Shown here: positions 2,472 to 31,717 of the stretch, piece after piece | Layout of the letters: each line of letters starts with the position of its first letter | How positions within the stretch are numbered: the first letter of the stretch is position 1 | IMG/VR virus record: IMGVR_UViG_3300022747_000030 | Location: 1-33,751 of that record | DNA: 33,751 nt | DNA from: a virus | Reading direction: 5' to 3' (one strand) | The notes under the pieces: generated by a model | What the model was told of the DNA's origin: nothing | The model's database searches: none | Seen by the model: the letters and a program-made list of their open reading frames with translations, nothing else | Program-made: the position numbers and the translations under genes

Positions 2472-4034
2472 TCAGCCCCACAACGTCAGGTCGAATTGGT
2501 ACGTGCGCATGTTGGTGCGCAGCCCAATGATCAAAAACTTTTTGCCCGCGCTCATGCCGAAGCGGTTGAACTGCAGCGTGACGATCTTTCCAACGTCCAG
2601 CACGGAGGCCAGGCTGGAATCGACGCGGATCGTCACTTCGTACATGTCGCGGCGCACCTTGTAGATCGCCAGGCGCCGGGCTGATTCGGCGGCTGCGTCT
2701 GTCTCGTTCGTCAGCACGGTGTCGAACTCCAGCTCGGGGCTGGTGAGGTTCGCGGTCTTCACCGTCGCATCGCTGCTTTCCGCCCGGCGGTATTCGCTGG
2801 CCAGGAAGGACTTGCGCGCATCGGTCACCGATGCCGTGAGGTCGTCCTGCACGTTGTAGATGCGCTGGTATCCCAGCTTCACCTTCCAAGCAGGCACGCC
2901 CACGCCAGGGTCGCGGCTGGCCACGCGCTCGATCTTCAGCGTCTCCAGCGCGGTAATCGTGCCGACGGATGTGCCGGTGGGCAGCGCGATCTGGCCAATG
3001 CGGAAGACGCCCGAGGTGTCCGTCGCATACCAGGCGCCCACGCTGGCGCACAGCGTGTCCAGAATCTCCAGCGGCGTCATGTCCTGGGTGTAGGGCACAT
3101 AAACGCCGGTCTCGTATGCGGCCACGGCATCGAGCGCCGTGATGTCGGCGCTGCTGATGTCGCCGGAGCTGATGCCAGCGGCCATCAGAACCTGGTTGAA
3201 CAGCTGCCCAACGGTGCGGTTGGCCACGGCGGCCCCCTGCACTGCGTCCACCGTCACGGTGCCGGTCGGCGCCGAGCCCAGGCGGATAAAGCACCCGGCC
3301 GTCGCGTCGTTCCAGACGCGGTACTGGCCCGCCGTCGGCGCGGTGGTCTCCATGTCCGTCTGCGAGGTGTAGGCCGCGCCAGCGGTCAGCGGCGCCCCCC
3401 GGTCATAGGCGGCAGCGATCGACTGCAGGGCGTTTCCGGCATGCACCTGGTAGATGCGCCGGTCGGTGTTCACCTGCGGCGGCGCCACGTTGAAGACCTT
3501 GCCGAAAACCAGCGGCTTCGGTTTGCCCTTCAAGTCACCGGCGACACCCTCCAGGCCGCTGGGCAGGGTGTTCGTGCCCGCGTAGCGCACCTGCTGCAGC
3601 GGCTTGGCCAGGTCTTGCTGGCGATCGCGCACGCGCAGGATCACCTTCTGCCAGGACAGCTCGGCCTGCTCCATCGTGCCCTTGAGCACCGTCACCCAGG
3701 AGGTCACGGTGCTGGCGCCGTCTGCCAGCGTGCCCATCTTGATCGTGATCGGACGGCCGACGAAGCTGTAGCCCAGCAGGGCATCGAGGCCGCCGTCGTT
3801 GTTCACCAGCACCATGTCGCCGTACCCGATCTGGGAGCGGCCCGTCGTCTTGCCGTCGCTGAAGCAGCTGCGGCTGATGTTGGCCGCCTGCTGGATGCGC
3901 CCTTCGTAGAAGGTGTTCGCGGGCGTGTCGGTCGGCGATGTGACGTATCCGTGCGTCGAAAAATAGAGCGTGCGGGTGCCGGTGATGGCCGGGTCGTACA
4001 CCACCACATCGGCGACGATGATCTGCTGCGGCAT
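2472..4034 (-). CDS. Putative tail tip/baseplate hub protein
   Basis: 520 aa. It follows the tape measure gene directly, overlapping by one base at 4034. The N-terminal half describes a beta-rich domain (IIVADVVVYDPAITGTRTLYFST). The central part has the motif LEILDTLCASVGAWYATDTSGVFRIGQ, split here by position at about residues 345-370, which resembles hub proteins of siphophage and myophage baseplates. The C-terminus (ARRLAIYKVRRDMYEVTIR, then LDVGKIVTLQFNRFGM) matches the pattern of tail proteins whose last domain begins with a line on the state of the base variable. Function is inferred from order and fold pattern, not from catalytic residues. Confidence 0.68.
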   Translation of the reverse strand: MPQQIIVADVVVYDPAITGTRTLYFSTHGYVTSPTDTPANTFYEGRIQQAANISRSCFSDGKTTGRSQIGYGDMVLVNNDGGLDALLGYSFVGRPITIKMGTLADGASTVTSWVTVLKGTMEQAELSWQKVILRVRDRQQDLAKPLQQVRYAGTNTLPSGLEGVAGDLKGKPKPLVFGKVFNVAPPQVNTDRRIYQVHAGNALQSIAAAYDRGAPLTAGAAYTSQTDMETTAPTAGQYRVWNDATAGCFIRLGSAPTGTVTVDAVQGAAVANRTVGQLFNQVLMAAGISSGDISSADITALDAVAAYETGVYVPYTQDMTPLEILDTLCASVGAWYATDTSGVFRIGQIALPTGTSVGTITALETLKIERVASRDPGVGVPAWKVKLGYQRIYNVQDDLTASVTDARKSFLASEYRRAESSDATVKTANLTSPELEFDTVLTNETDAAAESARRLAIYKVRRDMYEVTIRVDSSLASVLDVGKIVTLQFNRFGMSAGKKFLIIGLRTNMRTYQFDLTLWG

Positions 4035-14942: not shown

Positions 14943-16634
14943 CTATAGCGTCAAGACGCCTCGACCTTCGTAAACGCTTGGCCCTTCGGCCACTTCCACA
15001 GCCATGGCGCGGCCCAGGGCCATCAGCATGGCCACGGGGCCGTCGATCTTGTTTTCGGGGCGCTCTTTGGTGGGGTGTCGCAGCTCGTTGAATTTGCTGA
15101 CCTTGACCACCAAGTTGCTCACCATCCAGGCCATGACGGGGTTGCCGTCATGGCGCAGCTTTTTTTCCAGCACCAGGTTTTCCACCTGGAGCAGCGGGGG
15201 CGTGAAGAAAAGCGCCCGCTGCGTGATTTCCACCAGCGGCAGGCCCTCTTCGATCAATTTCCCCGCGAAATACATTGAGAGCGCCGGGTCAAAGGCGATC
15301 TCTTGGACGTCGAAGTCACGGCACAGCGTGCGCATGTCTTCGGCCACCACGTCAAAGTCGGTGATGTCGCCATCGGTGACCTGCACATACCCTTGCCGCG
15401 CCCAGCCGCTCAGGTGCGCATTGCCGCTTTCCTGGATCGCCAGCTCATTGAGGTACAGACGTGTGCACACATGCCACAGGCCATCGCGCTCGAACACCAG
15501 GCACAGCGCGGCAAAGTCCTTTTTTTGTGCCAGGTCCAGCCCGATCCAGGCCTTGGCACCGTGAAAGTCGGCCAGATCGCGCAGCGCAGGGAAAGCGCAG
15601 CGGTCCCAGGCCCGCATGTCCATCCAGATCGACTCGCCCGACACCCAGACGTTTAGGCGCTTGGTCAAAAAGTTGTTCAGCGCCGATGGCATGGCTTCGG
15701 CCTTGCGGCTCGCAGCGGCCATGTCGTCCATCAGCACCGACTTTCCCCAGTTGGGGTTGGCTTTGGCCCAGCTGGCGGGGTCATGCGGGTCATCGCCCTC
15801 GTCCAGCGTGTAAATGATTCCGAACATCGTCGGGTCATCGATCACACCGTCCAGCACCTTTGTCACGTGGGTGCGGCGCTCGTAGCAAATGCCCGACCTG
15901 TCGGTGCCGGCCGTGGTGATGTTCCACAGCAGTGACTGCTCGCGGGCGCCTCGGGCGGTGTCGATCACGTCATACACCGCACGCGTCTTGTGCGCATGCA
16001 GCTCGTCAATGACTGCAAAATGCACGTTCAGACCGTCCAGCGTGCTGCCTTCGGCGGCCAGCGGCGTGAACTTGCTCGCCCGGTGCGCCACCGTGATGCT
16101 GTGCTGCATGATGGCCACGCCCAGGTGCTCTCGCAGCCCGGTGGTGCGCTCGGCCATGGCCTTGGCGTCGTCAAAAACGATGCGGGCCTGGTCGCGCGTC
16201 GTGGCCGCGCTGTAAACCTCGGCCCCATGTTCGCCATCGGCGCTGAGCATGTAGAGCGCCAGCCCGCTGGACAGCGTGGACTTGGCGTTTTTGCGCGGGA
16301 CCTCTGTGTACCCTTCCTTGAAGCGGCGGAGGCCGGTTTCTCGGTGAACCCAGCCAAAAACTGTCGTGATGATGAAGCACTGCCAGGGCTCCAGCTCGAT
16401 CAGCCGGCGCTCGCGTGCCCATTTGCCCTTGATGTGGGGCAGCAGCTCGATGAACTCGCAGGGTCGGGCGGCCTTATCGGCATCAAACACCCATGGCCAC
16501 GCATCAGACGGTGCACGCGCCATGTCTTGGATCTGGCGCGCACAGGCCAGCTTCACCCACTTGCAGGCAAGAATTTGGCCATCGGCCACCGCCTGCGCAT
16601 AGCGCTGGGCGGCTTCGACGTACTGGTTCATCAA
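14943..16634 (-). CDS. terL: Terminase large subunit
   Basis: 563 aa packaging motor. The ATPase domain has a Walker-A-like PRKNAKST at 113-120 and Walker B FAVIDEL at 207-212. The coupling region follows with NITTAGTDRSGICYE. The C-terminal nuclease domain begins GLDLAQKKDF (Asp367 and Asp373), with an acidic DP at 449-450 and KIDGPVAM (Asp531) as further metal-ligand candidates. It cuts concatemers and drives DNA through the portal. The start (MMNQYV) overlaps the small-subunit stop by four bases, so the two are coupled. Confidence 0.96.
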   Translation of the reverse strand: MMNQYVEAAQRYAQAVADGQILACKWVKLACARQIQDMARAPSDAWPWVFDADKAARPCEFIELLPHIKGKWARERRLIELEPWQCFIITTVFGWVHRETGLRRFKEGYTEVPRKNAKSTLSSGLALYMLSADGEHGAEVYSAATTRDQARIVFDDAKAMAERTTGLREHLGVAIMQHSITVAHRASKFTPLAAEGSTLDGLNVHFAVIDELHAHKTRAVYDVIDTARGAREQSLLWNITTAGTDRSGICYERRTHVTKVLDGVIDDPTMFGIIYTLDEGDDPHDPASWAKANPNWGKSVLMDDMAAASRKAEAMPSALNNFLTKRLNVWVSGESIWMDMRAWDRCAFPALRDLADFHGAKAWIGLDLAQKKDFAALCLVFERDGLWHVCTRLYLNELAIQESGNAHLSGWARQGYVQVTDGDITDFDVVAEDMRTLCRDFDVQEIAFDPALSMYFAGKLIEEGLPLVEITQRALFFTPPLLQVENLVLEKKLRHDGNPVMAWMVSNLVVKVSKFNELRHPTKERPENKIDGPVAMLMALGRAMAVEVAEGPSVYEGRGVLTL

Positions 16635-25680: not shown

Positions 25681-26640
25681 ATGCAAGCTAAAGACCCATC
25701 AAAGCGAGTTGGCGCACTTGCCAGAAGTGCGGCCCTATCACCCGAACAGAGATCAAAAATTGCTGCAAAAGCCGCATTGAAGCGCGCGGGATTGCCCAGC
25801 GCTACCCACACGGGCTCCGTCAATATTGGGGGCGCTGCCATTCCATGCGCCGTGTTGGAGAGTGGGCAACGGGTTGTTTGGCAACGCGAGGTTGTGGGTC
25901 TGCTGACAGGAAACAAAAAAGGCGGGCTGACTCGCTACCTGTCTGCAGGCAATCTGGCCCCATTTGCCCCGGCAAAATTTCTCACGGGTGATTTTGACGA
26001 CACAGCCATCACCTTTGAAATGGATGGCCGCAAAGCACACGGCTTTGAAGCCGAGGACATTGTTGAGATTTGCCGCATGTACATGATGGCGCGTGCGGCA
26101 AACGCACTTCTTCCAAGTCAAATTCATTTGGCAGCACAGGCCGAAATCATTGTTCTGTCGCTGGCAAAAATCGGTATTACAGCGCTGATTGATGAAGCCA
26201 CAGGCTACCAAGAAGTGCGCGATCGCAAAGCGCTGCAAGCCCTGCTGGACACCTATCTTCGCAAGGAACATGCAGCCTGGGCAAAGCGATTTCCAGATGA
26301 TTTCTACAAAGAAATGTTCAGACTGAAATCATGGTCTTACCCCACTGTAGGTGGAGCGAGGCCTGGGGTGGTCGGGACCTATACCAATGACCTGGTTTAT
26401 GAACGAATCGCTCCCGGCCTTCTTCAGGAGCTGGAACTCAGAAACCCCAAAACAAGTAACGGGAGTCGCAAAACCAAGCACCATCAATGGATGACTGAAG
26501 ATATTGGCGATCCTGCGCTCACGGCACATATTCATGCCGTCATGGGGTTTATGCGGGCCTGTGATTCATGGGAGCAGTTGCTGAGGATGATGGACCGCGC
26601 CTACCCCAAGAAGGGCACACAAATACCGCTCATTGAGTGA
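25681..26640 (+). CDS. P63C domain protein
   Basis: 319 aa. The P63C domain (PF10546) occupies about residues 150-300: EIIVLSLAKIGITALIDEATGY, DRKALQALLDTYLRKEHAAW, FPDDFYKEMFRL, then GVVGTYTNDLVYERIAPGLL and KTKHHQWMTEDIGDPAL. The N-terminal part (Lys/Ala/Arg-rich, then GSVNIGGAAIPCAVLESGQRVVW and LTRYLSAGNLAP) resembles Bro-N/KilA-N-like phage DNA-binding segments. It stands alone with its own promoter and terminator in the rex position between cI and OL. Function in the family is not established; a moron role is inferred. Confidence 0.9.
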   Translation: MQAKDPSKRVGALARSAALSPEQRSKIAAKAALKRAGLPSATHTGSVNIGGAAIPCAVLESGQRVVWQREVVGLLTGNKKGGLTRYLSAGNLAPFAPAKFLTGDFDDTAITFEMDGRKAHGFEAEDIVEICRMYMMARAANALLPSQIHLAAQAEIIVLSLAKIGITALIDEATGYQEVRDRKALQALLDTYLRKEHAAWAKRFPDDFYKEMFRLKSWSYPTVGGARPGVVGTYTNDLVYERIAPGLLQELELRNPKTSNGSRKTKHHQWMTEDIGDPALTAHIHAVMGFMRACDSWEQLLRMMDRAYPKKGTQIPLIE

Positions 26641-26700: not shown

Positions 26701-26763
26701 TTTCACTCTGGTTGAATATTATTTGAACTGTGGTTGACAGCACATATTGAACCGTGGTTCAAT
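26701..26763 (+). promoter_or_regulatory. OL operators and PL promoter of the rightward early operon
   Basis: Three dyads: 26747-26762 (perfect TTGAACCGTGGTTCAA), 26723-26738 (TTGAACTGTGGTTGAC) and a weaker one at 26701-26716 (10 of 14 positions). TTGACA (26734-26739) and TTCAAT (26758-26763) are 18 bases apart on the plus strand, exactly as at PR; the alternative TTGAAC/TATTGA pair (16 bases) is kept too. It therefore looks like the lambda OL/PL counterpart under the same CI. Confidence 0.82.
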
Positions 26764-26827
26764 GCCATCCATCGCACTTCAACGCGAGAAATCGGTTGAA
26801 GCGGCCCCACCAACGATGGAGCTATGC

Positions 26828-27373
26828 ATGCAGACATCTGCACACATCATTACCGCACCAGACATTGAAGACCGGTTGGCCGCCGCAGAAGTGCGCCGCC
26901 CAATCTACGGCCAGCGCCTGGTGCGCGTCATGGTGCATAAGCCGTACCAGGCCGAAAGCGCGGAAATTCTTGTTGCGCACGATGACTTTTTGATGATCAC
27001 GGGCCGCCGCCCCACGGTGGAGGAGCTGATCACGGTGGATGTGCCGATGCAAGAGCGGCTGTTGTCGGCGCTGCACATCCTGGCAGACCGCCGCCCGGAC
27101 GATTACGCGACACCGGCAACCAGGCGCTTTCTGGCACCGCATGCACTGGAGTCGCTGGCCATCGATGGCAACGAGGAATTGCGCATGTTGGCCTTGCAGT
27201 TCATTTCCAGAATTTGTGCCGCCTGGCTTGCGCTTCTGCCTCCTGAGGATCGTCTGCTCCTGGAGACAGATTGGCTCGACGTCCTGTCTGCAACTCTGCG
27301 ACATCCAGCACCAGGTGCCACTCACCCGTCTCAGGCAACTGAATCGCCATCCCCGGCACCAGCCGCACCTTAG
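26828..27373 (+). CDS. First gene of the PL-like operon, hypothetical (181 aa)
   Basis: ATG 26828 has GGAG six bases upstream; upstream in-frame starts fall in the operator. The protein is soluble: PDIEDRLAAAEVRRPIYGQRLV, VHKPYQAESAEILVAHDDF, then VDVPMQERLLSALHILADR and LALQFISRICAAWLALL. The last 25 residues are Pro/Ser/Ala-rich and overlap the minus-strand gene at 27201-27440, so they may be a poorly conserved tail. By position it is the counterpart of lambda N, but nothing in it (no Arg-rich motif) supports antitermination. Confidence 0.65.
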   Translation: MQTSAHIITAPDIEDRLAAAEVRRPIYGQRLVRVMVHKPYQAESAEILVAHDDFLMITGRRPTVEELITVDVPMQERLLSALHILADRRPDDYATPATRRFLAPHALESLAIDGNEELRMLALQFISRICAAWLALLPPEDRLLLETDWLDVLSATLRHPAPGATHPSQATESPSPAPAAP

Positions 27374-27440
27374 ATCTGAATGTGTTGATGCCTATGGGCG
27401 CTTCCGCTCTAAACGTGAGCCTGTAGGTGATTTCTTCCAT
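27201..27440 (-). CDS. 79-aa minus-strand gene overlapping the 181-aa gene
   Basis: ATG 27440 is preceded by AAGAGGCGGTC, a fair ribosome binding site. The sequence MEEITYRLTFRAEAPIGINTF, then VRLVPGMAIQLPETGEWHL and VLDVAELQ, is a plausible small beta protein. The C-terminal 25 residues are charged (DDPQEAEAQARRHK). It runs against the surrounding plus-strand operon, overlapping 173 bases of the upstream gene in antisense. No family is recognised. Either it or the tail of the plus-strand gene may be non-functional. Confidence 0.5.
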   Translation of the reverse strand: MEEITYRLTFRAEAPIGINTFRSKVRLVPGMAIQLPETGEWHLVLDVAELQTGRRANLSPGADDPQEAEAQARRHKFWK

Positions 27441-27469: not shown

Positions 27470-27613
27470 ATGTCACACCATCTTGAATACACCCAGCGGA
27501 TTGACCCGCGCAGCCTCCGCGTCCAGCGCCAGAGGCCGATGCTTGACGCCCTTGTTGCTGCCCTGATCGGCTGCGGGCTGGCTGCTGCCCTGGTGGTGGG
27601 GTGGGCAGCATGA
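27470..27613 (+). CDS. 47-aa small membrane protein
   Basis: ATG 27470 (MSHHLEYTQRIDPRSLRVQR) followed by a C-terminal hydrophobic segment LDALVAALIGCGLAAALVVGW, a likely single membrane helix. Its stop overlaps the next ATG (ATGA at 27610). It is the first of a run of small ORFs joined by such overlaps. The ribosome binding site (AAAAGAA) is weak. Function is unknown; small transmembrane proteins at this locus might act in exclusion or lysis control. Confidence 0.55.
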   Translation: MSHHLEYTQRIDPRSLRVQRQRPMLDALVAALIGCGLAAALVVGWAA

Positions 27614-27942
27614 GCCAGTATCTTGCTCTGGTCATTTCGGCCGCTGCCGTGCTCATCAATCTGGCTTTGTGGTGGACGTATGCCCGCGACCGATCAGCGC
27701 AGCGCCAATATGCCTACGAGCAGGCTGCCAAAGCCAATGGCGGTGGACCAAAGCCACTGCCAGTGCATCTTGTAGAAGCGTCGCAACGCTTCAAGGTAGC
27801 GCACGACTGCTGGCCTCTTCTGATAGGGCAAGAAGACGATGGGACTGTCTGGGTCGTCGTCAGGCGAAATCAACTCCCCAGCCCACCACCTACGAATTTT
27901 CTTGAGCATGGCAATGATTCTGCCGTAGGGGGCAGAGCATGA
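27610..27942 (+). CDS. Small membrane-anchored protein (110 aa), paralogue of the 28481 ORF
   Basis: ATG 27610 with GGTGGGG upstream, overlapping the preceding stop. Residues 4-27 (LALVISAAAVLINLALWWTYA) are a membrane helix. Its N-terminus and its C-terminal phrase SPPPTNFLEHG are both matched in the 50-aa ORF at 28481. The middle (about 35-85) is antisense to the minus-strand gene at 27694-27909, which may have been inserted there. The stop overlaps the next ATG by four bases. No function is recognised. Confidence 0.5.
   Translation: MSQYLALVISAAAVLINLALWWTYARDRSAQRQYAYEQAAKANGGGPKPLPVHLVEASQRFKVAHDCWPLLIGQEDDGTVWVVVRRNQLPSPPPTNFLEHGNDSAVGGRA
27694..27909 (-). CDS. 71-aa minus-strand membrane protein (MLKKIxRWWAGEL type)
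   Basis: ATG 27909 within a 42-bp repeat. It reads MLKKIRRWWAGELISPDDDP, then FLPYQKRPAVVRYLEALRRF and a C-terminal membrane helix (LWSTAIGFGSLLVGILAL). This is a protein-like sequence with basic-aromatic start. A frame with the same first 13 residues occurs at 28600. It lies entirely antisense to the plus-strand gene 27610-27942, and no clear ribosome binding site is seen. Whether both are used is open. Confidence 0.45.
   Translation of the reverse strand: MLKKIRRWWAGELISPDDDPDSPIVFLPYQKRPAVVRYLEALRRFYKMHWQWLWSTAIGFGSLLVGILALR
27871..27912. repeat. 42-bp direct repeat, copy 1
   Basis: 39 of 42 bases match 28562-28603. Read on the plus strand it encodes SPPPTNFLEHG; read on the minus strand it encodes MLKKIRRWWAGEL. 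Confidence 0.85.
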
Positions 27943-28484
27943 TCGCAATCACGTACCGCTTACAGGTCTGGCTTGTCCGGCTTGCGCTTCGCTCAGGACT
28001 TCTTTCCTGCCAAGGAAAGGTTATGGAGTGCAATGGCAAGGCCCTTGCGACCGCCCTTGATGGTCAAACCGCAAGCAGTACTGACATAAACCTTGTCGGC
28101 CCCATGAAGGGCGGCGTCTTTACATGTATGCGCAGGCGCGAGAACTGTGAGGTTTGTCCTGGGTTCAAGGAGTTTCGGCAGCAGGGCAGCCATAGACAAC
28201 TGAATGTGTTTTCCACCCCGCAAGGTGAGGCCAACATGGCTGATGGTCACTGGAAAGGTGCTGAGGTTCACGACCTCAACCAACAAGCATTCAGTGCCGT
28301 CAATTCGCAGCGCCCAGCTCGGTCTGATTCGGATCTTCACACGGTCGTTGCTGAACGCTCTCCAGCTGTTGAACAGGCTCAGGCATGCGCCAAAAACTGC
28401 GATGCCAAGACTAACGTAGGAAATGGTTTCGGCCTGCATGGCACCTCCGTTGATATTCGCATTGTGCAAGAGGACCAAGCATGA
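27939..28484 (+). CDS. 181-codon plus-strand frame, possibly spurious over its middle
   Basis: It starts at an ATGA overlap with the previous gene and ends at an ATGA overlap with the next, which argues for translation. The first 24 residues (MIAITYRLQVWLVRLALRSG) are basic and hydrophobic. The middle (28000-28440) is the exact antisense of a convincing minus-strand gene and its composition (Gln, Ser, Ala, Asp) is less protein-like. I treat it as an unresolved overlapping frame; an original shorter gene may have been overwritten by the minus-strand insertion. Confidence 0.35.
   Translation: MIAITYRLQVWLVRLALRSGLLSCQGKVMECNGKALATALDGQTASSTDINLVGPMKGGVFTCMRRRENCEVCPGFKEFRQQGSHRQLNVFSTPQGEANMADGHWKGAEVHDLNQQAFSAVNSQRPARSDSDLHTVVAERSPAVEQAQACAKNCDAKTNVGNGFGLHGTSVDIRIVQEDQA
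27993..28439 (-). CDS. Membrane-anchored protein with Ig-like domain (148 aa)
   Basis: ATG 28439 has a strong GGAGGT site four bases upstream. Residues 5-22 (ISYVSLGIAVFGACLSLF) are a membrane helix, followed by NSWRAFSNDRVKIRIRPSW and a beta-rich domain LLVEVVNLSTFPVTISHVGLTLRGG typical of small prophage proteins with an N-terminal anchor and an Ig-like fold. It is antisense to the plus-strand operon. The protein-like sequence and good ribosome site make it the most convincing of the minus-strand genes here; a moron role is inferred. Confidence 0.68.
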   Translation of the reverse strand: MQAETISYVSLGIAVFGACLSLFNSWRAFSNDRVKIRIRPSWALRIDGTECLLVEVVNLSTFPVTISHVGLTLRGGKHIQLSMAALLPKLLEPRTNLTVLAPAHTCKDAALHGADKVYVSTACGLTIKGGRKGLAIALHNLSLAGKKS

Positions 28485-28600
28485 GCTCCCGCTTGCCTTT
28501 GATTCTGTCGGTCATCGCTGTGTTCACCAACGCCGCCCTGTGGTTCGTTGTCCAGCGTGCGCAACTCTCCAGCCCACCACCTGCAAATTTTCTTGAGCAT
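28379..28600 (-). CDS. Minus-strand frame starting MLKKICRWWAGEL (doubtful)
   Basis: 73 codons from ATG 28600, inside repeat copy 2, with AGAGG upstream. Only the first 20 residues (MLKKICRWWAGELRTLDNEP) resemble the 71-aa protein; the remainder is unlike a protein (Ser/Gln/His/Pro-rich) and is antisense to the 50-aa plus-strand gene. Most likely a truncated remnant or a chance frame. Confidence 0.3.
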   Translation of the reverse strand: MLKKICRWWAGELRTLDNEPQGGVGEHSDDRQNQRQAGAHAWSSCTMRISTEVPCRPKPFPTLVLASQFLAHA

Positions 28601-28633
28601 GGCTGCGCCTCTACCCCGGAGAGCCACCCATGA
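28481..28633 (+). CDS. 50-aa membrane protein, paralogue of the 27610 gene
   Basis: ATG 28481 overlaps the previous stop, with AAGAGGACC as ribosome binding site. It reads MSSRLPLILSVIAVFTNAAL, then a helix end at WFVVQ and SPPPANFLEHG. The N-terminal helix pattern (LxLxxSxxAVxxNxALW) matches that of the 110-aa gene at 27610, and both share the SPPPxNFLEHG tail from the repeat. Its stop overlaps the next ATG (28630). It was too short for routine gene finding but is well supported by coupling. Confidence 0.6.
   Translation: MSSRLPLILSVIAVFTNAALWFVVQRAQLSSPPPANFLEHGCASTPESHP
28562..28603. repeat. 42-bp direct repeat, copy 2
   Basis: Matches 27871-27912 at 39 of 42 bases. It codes on both strands, as in copy 1. 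Confidence 0.85.
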
Positions 28634-29067
28634 ACGACTGGCTGGGCGGCATGGCCGCTGCTGCGCTGTTTTTCACGGCCATCCACTTGGCCCAGCCGCC
28701 TGACGAGCCCGAGCAGGCGACAGATCAAACCACAGAAAGGACAGAAGCCATGAAAGCCACTGGTCTGGTCTTTATGAGCCGCAGCACGCCATTGCTCACC
28801 CGCGATGCCAACGGTGAGCCGCAGTTGCTGCTGCGCGCAGTGCACCGCGCAGGCAAGCACCACACCGAGGCATGGACTTTGTTTTGGCGTGGCCAGGCCG
28901 CCGCCGACTTTCATGCCCAGCACGCCGCAGAGCTGACCGCTGGCCAGCCCTTGCACATCACCGCCTCTCAACTGCGCACGCACCAGGTCGGCCATTTGGC
29001 CGAGATCCAGGCGCACATCGAAACGTGTGCACTGGCACCGCGCGCACAAACGGTTGCCACCACTTGA
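28630..29067 (+). CDS. Membrane-anchored hypothetical protein (145 aa)
   Basis: ATG 28630 with GGAG nine bases upstream, overlapping the 50-aa gene's stop. Residues 4-20 (WLGGMAAAALFFTAIHL) are hydrophobic; a Glu/Thr-rich linker follows to about 40. The rest (MKATGLVFMSRSTPLLTRDAN, LLLRAVHRAG, WTLFWRGQAAADFHA, HITASQLRTH) is a small alpha/beta domain. An internal ATG at 28750 with AAAGGACAG upstream might also be used to make a soluble form. No family is recognised. Confidence 0.65.
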   Translation: MNDWLGGMAAAALFFTAIHLAQPPDEPEQATDQTTERTEAMKATGLVFMSRSTPLLTRDANGEPQLLLRAVHRAGKHHTEAWTLFWRGQAAADFHAQHAAELTAGQPLHITASQLRTHQVGHLAEIQAHIETCALAPRAQTVATT

Positions 29068-29089: not shown

Positions 29090-29269
29090 ATGAACGAAAT
29101 CGTTTCCCGCCAGGCCATCGAGCGCCGCGCCCAGGAGTTGGCACAGGTCTACGACAACCTGGTCGATGCCTGCCCCTACCCCTTTGGCAGCCCTGCTGCT
29201 GCGGCCTTTGCAGAGGCCTTTGAGCGCGAGCGCCAGGCCTTGGCCGCCCAGGAGGCTAGCCATGGGTGA
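29090..29269 (+). CDS. 59-aa helical protein
   Basis: ATG 29090 with GGAG nine bases upstream. It reads MNEIVSRQAIERRAQELAQV, then YDNLVDACPYPFGSPAAAAF and AEAFERERQALAAQ, a small amphipathic helical protein. It follows the 145-aa gene by 22 bases and overlaps the next gene by eight bases. It was too short for routine gene finding. Function is unknown. Confidence 0.65.
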   Translation: MNEIVSRQAIERRAQELAQVYDNLVDACPYPFGSPAAAAFAEAFERERQALAAQEASHG

Positions 29270-29576
29270 CGCACACCTCAATGCGCTGCTGCTGTTGGTC
29301 AGCACTTTTGGCCTGGTGTTTGCGCTGGGCCTGCAAAGCCAGCTGGTGAACAACGGGCACTTTGTGGCCGCCTTCGTCAATTCGCTTGCCATTGGCACGG
29401 CCAACCTGGTGCTGTTCAAGCTGGCACCCAACGCTGGCGGCATCGAGGTCGCGGGCTACCTGATTGGCGGCCCATTCGGCATCGTGGCCAGCATGGTTTG
29501 TTACCGCTGGCTGCGTGGTCATGCCGTGAAGTCCGACATGACCAAAACCTACCCCAGAAAAGGAGCTGCCCAATGA
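29262..29576 (+). CDS. Conserved phage membrane protein (104 aa)
   Basis: ATG 29262 follows an ideal AGGAGG site. Three hydrophobic segments are visible: LLLLVSTFGLVFALGL (about 9-24), FVNSLAIGTANLVLF (38-52) and GYLIGGPFGIVASMVCY (64-81). A family with this pattern is common in prophages of Burkholderiales, next to early recombination or partition genes. It has no recognised function. The stop overlaps the ParB-like gene's start (ATGA). Confidence 0.75.
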   Translation: MGDAHLNALLLLVSTFGLVFALGLQSQLVNNGHFVAAFVNSLAIGTANLVLFKLAPNAGGIEVAGYLIGGPFGIVASMVCYRWLRGHAVKSDMTKTYPRKGAAQ

Positions 29577-31717
29577 CCACCTTCGGCATGACACGGCTGG
29601 ACCTGATCGTCCCCAGCCTCACCAACCCCCGCAAGACCTTCAATGAAGCCAGCTTGAAGGAGTTGGCCGAGAGCATTGCCGCAGCCGGCGTGCACACCCC
29701 GGTGCTGTTGCGGCCGCTGCCTGCGCACCGGCTGGAGGACACGGCGCACCTCTCGCCCCGCCCCGAATTCGAGCTGGTGGCCGGTGAGCGCCGCTACCGC
29801 GCCAGTCTGCTGGCCCATGCGGACAGCATCCCGGCCATGATCCGCGAGCTGACGGATGACCAGGCGCTGGAGGTGTCGATCATCGAGAATCTGCAGCGCG
29901 ATGACCTGACCGCGCTGGAAGAAGCCCAGGGCTACCAGATGCTGATGGACCACAGCCAGGTCACCGCCGACCAGGTGGCCGAGCGGATCGGCAAAAGCCG
30001 CTCTTACGTCTTCAGCCGCCTCAAGCTGCTGGACATGGGCCAGGACTGCCGAGACGCCCTGCGCGATGGCCTGATCGACGCCAGCAAGGCCCTGCTGCTG
30101 GCCCGCATCCCCAGCACGGCGCTGCAGGTCAAGGCGCTCAAAGAGATCATCCGCACCAACCACCCTGAGGGCGTGATGAGCCACCGCATGGCTGCCGAGT
30201 GGATCAGGAGCCGCTACATGCTCAAGATCGAGCAGGCCCCCTTTGACCACACCGACACCACGCTGGCCCCGCGCGCCTGCACGATCTGCCCCACCCGCAC
30301 GGGCGCCGATGCCGACCTGTTCATGGACGTGATGGGTGCAGACATGTGCACCGACCCGGACTGCTACGCCGGCAAGGTGCAGCAACACCACAGCCGCCGC
30401 CGCGCCCAGTTGGAGGCACAGGGCCACCAGATCATCGACGGCGAAGACGCCAAGGCCGTGATGCCCTATGCCATGGGTGCACCCGATGGTTACGCCCGCC
30501 TGGACGATGCCGCCGACAGCCCCACCAGCAAAACTCTACGCCAAGAGCTGGCCAAGATGCTGGACAGCGGCGAGCTGGTTCCGGTAATTATCGTCAACCC
30601 GCACAAAGAAAACGACTTGATCGCCTGCGTGCCTGAGGAAGATGTGCCCGCCCTTCTGGAGCGCGCAGGCAGCAAGGCTGCCAAAGCCGCCGCCAAGGCC
30701 GAAAAAGAGCGCCGCGCCACCCACGACCAGGAAGACCGCGAAGCCGCGCTGCGCGACGAATACGAAACCACCTGGCGCGAGCGCGTGCTGCAGGCCGTGG
30801 TGGACGGCGTGCGCAAAGAGCCCGAGCAAGACCTGACCCCTACGCTGCGCCGACGCCTGGCCAACCTGCTGATTGACGAGATGCACAAAACCACCATCAC
30901 GAGCTTGTGCGACATGCTGGACGTGGATGCCGTGAGCGACGAAGAAGCGGGCGATGCCAGCCCGCACGTGGTGGCGCTATTCAACTGGGCCACTGACATG
31001 GGCAATGGCCTGACCGCTGGCGACACCCTGACCGTGCTGAGTGCGGCTGGCGGTGCGCAGTGGCAACGCTGGATGGCCCGTTCAAAAAGCCAGGGTGAAG
31101 AAGAAACCGCACCCCTGCTGGATGCGACGATTGACCTGGATGTGAGCGTCAAGGCCATTCAGAGCCAGGTCAAGGCCGAAATCACCGCCCGCGAAACCGC
31201 AGCCGCCGATGCAGCGAATGCCGATCTATCCCTTGCCCCTGCTGCGCAAGCCAATGGGGTGCGGGGGGGCAAGGCCAAGAAGGCCAAACGCGAAAACCCC
31301 GCTGGCGCGGCCGCGCACGCGCAACGTCTGAGTGCTCAGGAGGCAGAGCAAGGCATCGCTGCCGCGATGCAGGGCATGGACGATGACAGCGGCGACTTCG
31401 CCGCTGTTAACTCAGGCGCTGACGCGCAAAGCAACGAACACGGCGCGGACTGCCGCGCCGTGCCTTGGCCACATTCACCCGCACCGGACGATCAACCCAA
31501 GGGCCATCAGGATCGAGGAATCGAGCGCTCTGACGTTTTGCTGGAGGATGCCCGTGAACTGGTGACCGAAATGCAGGCAGTAAGCGTGCGCGCCATCAAA
31601 GCGGCGCTCAACGTGGGCACGACCCGCGCCATGAGGTTGATCGAACAACTGGAGCGCGATGGCGTGGTATCGGCCTGCGACGAACGCGGCGCCAGGAAAG
31701 TGCTGGTGGCCGAATGA
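29573..31717 (+). CDS. ParB-family protein with C-terminal FtsK-gamma-like domain
   Basis: 714 aa from ATG 29573 with AAAAGGAGC upstream. N-terminal ParB/Srx domain: NPRKTF (18-23), GERRYRA (71-77) and IIENLQRDDLTALEEA (103-118). HTH about 130-152. A cysteine set (Cys236, Cys239, Cys259, Cys264) follows, as in other mobile-element ParB proteins. The long middle is charged. Residues about 653-712 (LLEDARELVTEMQAVSVRAI, NVGTTRAMRLIEQLERDGVV) match the winged-helix gamma domain of FtsK. No parA gene is in the window, so its role may be transcriptional or in DNA maintenance and not classical partition. Confidence 0.85.
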   Translation: MTTFGMTRLDLIVPSLTNPRKTFNEASLKELAESIAAAGVHTPVLLRPLPAHRLEDTAHLSPRPEFELVAGERRYRASLLAHADSIPAMIRELTDDQALEVSIIENLQRDDLTALEEAQGYQMLMDHSQVTADQVAERIGKSRSYVFSRLKLLDMGQDCRDALRDGLIDASKALLLARIPSTALQVKALKEIIRTNHPEGVMSHRMAAEWIRSRYMLKIEQAPFDHTDTTLAPRACTICPTRTGADADLFMDVMGADMCTDPDCYAGKVQQHHSRRRAQLEAQGHQIIDGEDAKAVMPYAMGAPDGYARLDDAADSPTSKTLRQELAKMLDSGELVPVIIVNPHKENDLIACVPEEDVPALLERAGSKAAKAAAKAEKERRATHDQEDREAALRDEYETTWRERVLQAVVDGVRKEPEQDLTPTLRRRLANLLIDEMHKTTITSLCDMLDVDAVSDEEAGDASPHVVALFNWATDMGNGLTAGDTLTVLSAAGGAQWQRWMARSKSQGEEETAPLLDATIDLDVSVKAIQSQVKAEITARETAAADAANADLSLAPAAQANGVRGGKAKKAKRENPAGAAAHAQRLSAQEAEQGIAAAMQGMDDDSGDFAAVNSGADAQSNEHGADCRAVPWPHSPAPDDQPKGHQDRGIERSDVLLEDARELVTEMQAVSVRAIKAALNVGTTRAMRLIEQLERDGVVSACDERGARKVLVAE

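Follow-up and report, generated by a model that had tools for sequence, protein, structure and literature searches.

The window analyzed in this work is the whole stretch of 33,751 nucleotides of the virus record IMGVR_UViG_3300022747_000030, which comes from a temperate phage of the ParB type whose relatives lie in Burkholderiales. Upstream of its ParB-like gene, in what would be the small-ORF part of an early (PL-like) operon, five plus-strand open reading frames begin exactly where a preliminary description of this DNA had placed them, at 27470, 27610, 27939, 28481 and 28630, with lengths of 47, 110, 181, 50 and 145 amino acids, respectively. Each is joined to the next by a 4-base ATGA overlap, formed by the TGA stop of one ORF and the ATG of the following one, at 27610, 27939, 28481 and 28630. 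These overlaps are as exact as had been described, but they number four instead of five, because there are only five ORFs to be joined. Most of the ORFs had been taken to be shorter than 60 codons, which is true of only two of the five (47 and 50 amino acids), and at least four had been assigned a single membrane helix. By mean Kyte-Doolittle hydropathy over 19 residues, a helix is clear in three of them, at the C-terminus of ORF 27470 (2.37) and at the N-termini of ORFs 27610 (2.03) and 28481 (2.14); the fourth, in ORF 28630, is weak (1.32), and ORF 27939 has no membrane helix (0.92). The features of the region are as follows:

27470..27613, plus strand: p1, 47-aa ORF with a basic N-terminus and a C-terminal membrane helix (hydropathy, homologue in contig L149)
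27610..27693, plus strand: p2N, N-terminal helix part of ORF 27610-27942, coding-like and paralogous to p4N
27694..27942, plus strand: remainder of ORF 27610, open and overlapping the antisense ORF mB (codon score)
27694..27909, minus strand: mB, putative 71-aa ORF with a basic N-terminus and a C-terminal helix, overlapping the middle of ORF 27610 (hydropathy)
27850..27945, plus strand: direct repeat, copy 1 (96 nt), the end of p2 with the next ATGA
27939..28484, plus strand: p3, 181-codon ORF, antisense shadow of mA (codon score, homology, antisense stops)
27993..28439, minus strand: mA, 148-aa gene with one N-terminal membrane helix and a beta-sandwich (homologues, model)
28481..28633, plus strand: p4, 50-aa ORF with an N-terminal helix, paralogue of p2 (hydropathy, codon score, shuffles)
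28541..28636, plus strand: direct repeat, copy 2 (96 nt, 72% identical), the end of p4 with the next ATGA
28630..28749, plus strand: p5ext, coding-like stretch of 40 codons that carries a weak helix and reads in frame into p5b
28750..29067, plus strand: p5b, 105-aa gene whose best homologues start at Met 28750
29573..31717, plus strand: ParB-like gene, the anchor of the operon (PF02195, PF17762, PF09397)

The tiny plus-strand ORFs are not equally coding-like along their length. The helix part of p2 has a codon score of +0.247 per codon, while the middle of ORF 27610, up to 27868, is not coding-like (-0.26 per codon), and p2 is thus not coding-like after codon 28; likewise, the helix half of p4 is coding-like (+0.430 per codon) and its tail is not (-0.55). 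That ORFs 27610 and 28481 are paralogues, as had been recognized, was borne out: the similarity of their N-terminal 25 to 28 residues exceeded that of all 1000 shuffles (0 of 1000 reached the score), and their ends form the 96-nt direct repeat. The only homologue of p1 among 162 loci was found in the viral contig L149 (4790-4942, tblastn E 2.8e-7, 49% identity), and p2 and p4 had none in the same 162 loci. Searches of phages with p2 and p4 gave nothing convincing, with best E values of 2 and of 0.1, respectively, the latter under portal-protein genes. A one-helix ORF of about 30 to 80 amino acids between CI and ParB is represented by p1 and p4, and by p2 in its N-terminal part only, and stop/start overlaps (1 or 4 bases) with a neighbor are found at p1/p2 and p4/p5. 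Taken together, the plus-strand pieces that are real or likely are 27470, the N-terminal helix of 27610, 28481 and the stretch 28630-28749, and small single-helix ORFs, translational coupling and local duplication are indeed present in this early operon, in agreement with the preliminary description. The opposite-strand ORF mB is a possible gene but an unproven one, at the level of a guess; no homologue was found in viral contigs or in phages (best E 9), and nine weak matches in 399 genomes were judged after inspection to be due to chance.

Downstream of p4, the 40 codons of p5ext have a codon score of +0.378 per codon and are a likely, although unconfirmed, coding stretch. A homologue of p5b was present in 8 of the 162 loci, and a search of viral contigs by peptide patterns found none. 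The ssDNA-binding gene VG_p39 of phage VarioGold occupies the same place as p5b, but neither VG_p39 nor gp08c of phage Aval has significant similarity to it; therefore, "ssDNA-binding" refers to the annotation of VG_p39 at this place and not to homology. Directly before parB, the early operon also contains a gene for a 104-aa membrane protein (29262-29576) that matches a holin family (phrog_7045, E 2e-11) and is present in 10 of the 162 loci.

Several further observations were made in and around this early region. A gene with a P63C domain (PF10546, E 2e-32) lies at 25681-26640, and a relative of it is on the minus strand in locus L110; a link of this gene to BstA was considered and set aside, as the part of the BstA report consulted names a KilA-N-like domain and does not contain the term P63C (PMC8585504). 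A minus-strand ORF of 79 amino acids (27201-27440) runs across the end of ORF 26747-27373; a weak relative was found in L085, on the plus strand (E 0.001), and a match to DUF1883 was below threshold. A 16-bp palindrome, GTGCASACGTSTGCAC, occurs in the window at 15453, at 26828 and, inside parB, at 30336. With up to two mismatches allowed, 69 of 110 loci had copies in the 4 kb upstream of parB, 89 in all, and there were 87 more inside parB and 45 elsewhere in these loci. A single shuffle of the upstream regions contained 1 copy, and 484 kb from other loci with ParB relatives contained none. The CACGTG-like center of this palindrome resembles chromosomal parS, and it could possibly be a phage parS-like site, while the copies within parB may instead reflect a conserved protein motif. 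This conserved palindrome of ParB phages may deserve more attention.

The preliminary description considered such a run of ORFs to be unusual. Loci anchored by ParB were gathered from genomes and viral contigs, of which 129 had a ParB match; 124, including the window, had regions of sufficient length before parB (up to 4 kb), and 110 remained after the removal of near-copies. Linked helix ORFs of 30 to 80 amino acids were found on the operon strand in 61 of the 110 regions and on the opposite strand in 20, and chains of at least five linked ORFs in 37 and 4, respectively; in these counts overlapping alternative starts may be included twice, and the opposite-strand control is also mostly non-coding. 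Because linked single-helix ORFs are usual in this phage group, with some of them annotated in VarioGold and Aval, the run cannot be regarded as unusual. In 8 of 12 loci, or in 9 if L155, for which the listed ORF is of 226 amino acids, is included, a small helix ORF ended between -10 and +40 bases from where the p5b homologue begins. The same was true of 2 of 90 control genes. As controls, long ORFs from 13 loci were taken at their first ATG or GTG start, a choice that may have lowered the control rate. In this comparison L162 was omitted as a near-copy of L163, and the helix ORF was not close by in L005, L040 and L184. The sequences of the small ORFs vary greatly across the regions, and their place and form persist. 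At the DNA level, the closest relative of the window in a phage collection was a single 77-nt match, and a search of the window's own record gave no match beyond itself. No description of this arrangement was found in the titles and abstract openings listed by literature searches.

The surveyed loci also contained repeated variable C-termini, in L004 (3640-8004), L012, L015, L018, L019, L024, L025, L027, L030, L046, L097, L098, L100 and L145. In L004 they occur with a reverse transcriptase gene (PF00078, E 7e-16) and with a protein whose match to Lcl_C was below threshold. These look like diversity-generating retroelements within the early operon before parB, with the reverse transcriptase tested in L004 only. 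In L102 (4807-6176) and L149 (5046-5571), short direct repeats that hold the start of a plus-strand ORF flank putative long minus-strand ORFs; such flanking repeats, which are also seen around mA, may be a mark of how antisense genes enter these operons.

Another departure from the preliminary description, in which all five ORFs were genes, concerns the segment 27939-28484, which lies antisense to a real gene that the description missed, namely mA (28439-27993, minus strand). A homologue of mA was detected in one of 399 genomes from the family to which Comamonas testosteroni belongs (39% identity, E 3.6e-16), in three of 369 genomes of the class, of which one is broken by a TAG and one has a TGA in the stretch of the matched frame, and in one of 398 genomes of the phylum. 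Two viral contigs, L180 and L181, also carry homologues, which were reached only with a four-row mA alignment; mA alone and a two-row alignment had no match in the viral contigs, nor did the mA proteins of the window, L180 and L181 have any match in phages. The codon score of mA (-0.019 per codon) is at the level of antisense frames and not coding-like by the phage's own standard, and the codon model alone does not separate mA or mB from antisense frames; therefore, the reality of mA rests on its homology. The homologues show mA to be a member of a gene family and to be read on the minus strand. The sequence CGGAGGTGCC, which suits ribosome binding, is located directly before its ATG.

The structure of mA modeled by AlphaFold2 from a four-sequence alignment consists of a helix (residues 2-31) followed by a beta-sandwich, with a mean pLDDT of 81.2. 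Because most of the aligned sequences have basic residues after the helix, the beta domain is suggested to be cytoplasmic. Among the solved structures that were compared, the best Foldseek match (E 3.1e-4) and the best Z score (7.9) were both to an archaeal pilus, and these structural matches were too general to name a function. The N-terminal part of the protein has a weak and partial profile match to PHROG 17486 (E 0.0032 for mA, 0.0047 for L181 and 5e-5 for L180), a family of unknown function. Neither the PADLOC models nor NCBIfam gave a match supporting a defense role, and the PADLOC library may hold few exclusion proteins. Between 27150 and 29000, no promoter was found on either strand by a search that covered sigma-70-like sites, and no terminator-like site was found on the minus strand.

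In contrast to mA, the plus-strand ORF p3 is no gene: apart from short extensions, it is simply the complement of mA, in register. Its codon score is negative (-0.154 per codon), it had no relatives at E < 1e-3 among the 162 loci, and a match in L110 (E 0.008) was judged to be due to chance after all frames were inspected. In five homologues of mA outside this operon, the in-register antisense frame contains 1, 9, 3, 8 and 6 stops. The frame is open in the window because mA uses none of the codons TTA, CTA and TCA for its 34 leucines and serines, as is the case for 5 of 95 gene-like ORFs of like GC3 and Leu plus Ser content drawn from the collected loci; under a base-composition null, the absence of antisense stops has a P of 0.003 in the window and of 0.093 in L180. 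We infer from this anatomy how the illusion of p3 arises: p3 looks linked because the ATGA junctions were duplicated along with p2 and p4 and because mA lacks these three codons. Both p2 and its paralogue p4 start and end in ATGA, and mA lies antisense between the two copies. It is therefore bracketed by the ATGA that closes p2 and the one that opens p4, which one of the three frames connects.

The sequence comparisons establish L180 as a second ParB-type phage with mA antisense in the same operon. Its ParB gene is 35% identical over 429 columns (E 4.5e-62), it has a homologue of VarioGold VG_p43 (E 1e-15), and its mA homologue lies antisense among small early genes, with short helix ORFs lined up after it. 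The two mA proteins are 34% identical (49 of 145 aligned residues). Among the loci of ParB phages, a profile search of the collected loci found mA only in the window and in L180, and it is therefore sporadic; in both, it is oriented opposite to the surrounding lytic operon, which in the window is on the plus strand.

Our preferred reading, to which we assign a probability of about 0.7, is that the region is an early small-ORF chain of a ParB-encoding temperate phage that carries an antisense, prophage-expressed membrane moron, perhaps acting in superinfection exclusion. The tandem tiny N-anchored ORFs p2 and p4 follow p1 and precede p5b, with an opposite-strand insert between and within the two copies that consists of the 148-aa gene mA and perhaps the 71-aa mB. 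The operon would be silenced by the CI repressor in the lysogen while mA would be made from its own promoter, and the protein, located in the inner membrane with its beta domain in the cytoplasm, could hinder superinfecting phages. The tiny plus-strand proteins, on the other hand, would be made early in the lytic cycle and would act at the host membrane. A membrane-acting exclusion role for the region, which had been proposed for the plus-strand chain, seems possible, with mA as the best candidate.

A less likely but plausible alternative keeps the same anatomy and makes mA a membrane protein of chromosomal origin that serves host fitness or some other purpose instead of exclusion. Most of the mA homologues being in bacterial genomes and the lack of a match to defense models are consistent with such a role, but two homologues are in viral contigs, one of them in the same antisense slot.

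The open frame in L180 bears on a further alternative. There, the complement of mA is likewise open and has an ATGA join at each end (4471 and 3941-3944), which is the main result against pure chance and the basis for a reading in which both mA and p3 are selected: the complement would be kept open and ATGA-coupled, allowing ribosomes that translate the lytic transcript to pass through the insert, and the prophage-expressed mA would have a "translation-transparent" form that allows the downstream lytic genes to stay expressed. The rarity of stop-free complements among comparable ORFs, their presence in both phages and the ATGA at both frame ends in both phages would fit this reading. However, the window was chosen because this frame is open, the zero in L180 is not rare (P 0.093, as above), and the duplicated ATGA junctions account for the frame ends in the window. 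The similarity of the p3 frames of the window and L180 exceeded a synonymous null (P 0.019), but the test is not specific, since L164, which is outside such an operon, gave the same P of 0.019 against the window. We therefore regard dual selection as unlikely. More improbable still is the original proposal of a membrane-acting early set, made by coupled translation of all five ORFs. In its favor are the exact ATGA joins, the stop-free frame of p3 and the matching layout that surrounds the antisense frame of L180; against it, p3 lies opposite a conserved gene, scores negatively in codon usage and has neither a homologue nor a helix, and p2 loses its coding character beyond codon 28.

Known phages offer parallels to the preferred reading, in which an early small-ORF chain carries an antisense moron. 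In the Variovorax phage VarioGold and the Acidovorax phage Aval, the genes VG_p40, VG_p41 and gp09c are at the same place of the operon, from CI to ParB, and resemble p1, p2 and p4 in their coupling by 4-base overlaps and in having one helix each, but no sequence similarity between the two sets was found, and unlike in the window no antisense gene is annotated in either operon. VG_p40 is annotated there as a membrane-segment protein, and VG_p40-41 are listed among the putative early genes of VarioGold in the portion of the report at hand (PMC9658991). An orientation against the lytic genes has been described as characteristic of accessory (moron) loci, and STMMW_20121 of prophage ST64B has its own promoter and is expressed in most conditions, according to the sections of the source that were available (PMC7067206). 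Both STMMW_20121 and mA are accessory genes opposite to lytic genes; expression has been reported for the former and is predicted for mA, which is likened to it by arrangement. The SieA protein of P22 is described, in the excerpt consulted, as an inner-membrane superinfection exclusion protein made by the prophage (PMC10883804). SieA and mA are alike in being small and, as predicted for mA, located in the inner membrane, and mA would also be made by the prophage; SieA, however, has three predicted helices instead of one helix and a beta-sandwich, and exclusion by mA is putative.

These results correct a tempting mis-annotation, as ATGA links and an open frame are insufficient to call a gene when the same place holds a duplication and an antisense gene. 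They also show that the early operon of this phage group has, as a constant trait, tiny single-helix ORFs whose sequences change fast. Furthermore, mA represents an unnamed family of membrane proteins that is common to chromosomes and to at least two ParB-type phages, and its antisense slot would be suited to expression in the lysogen.
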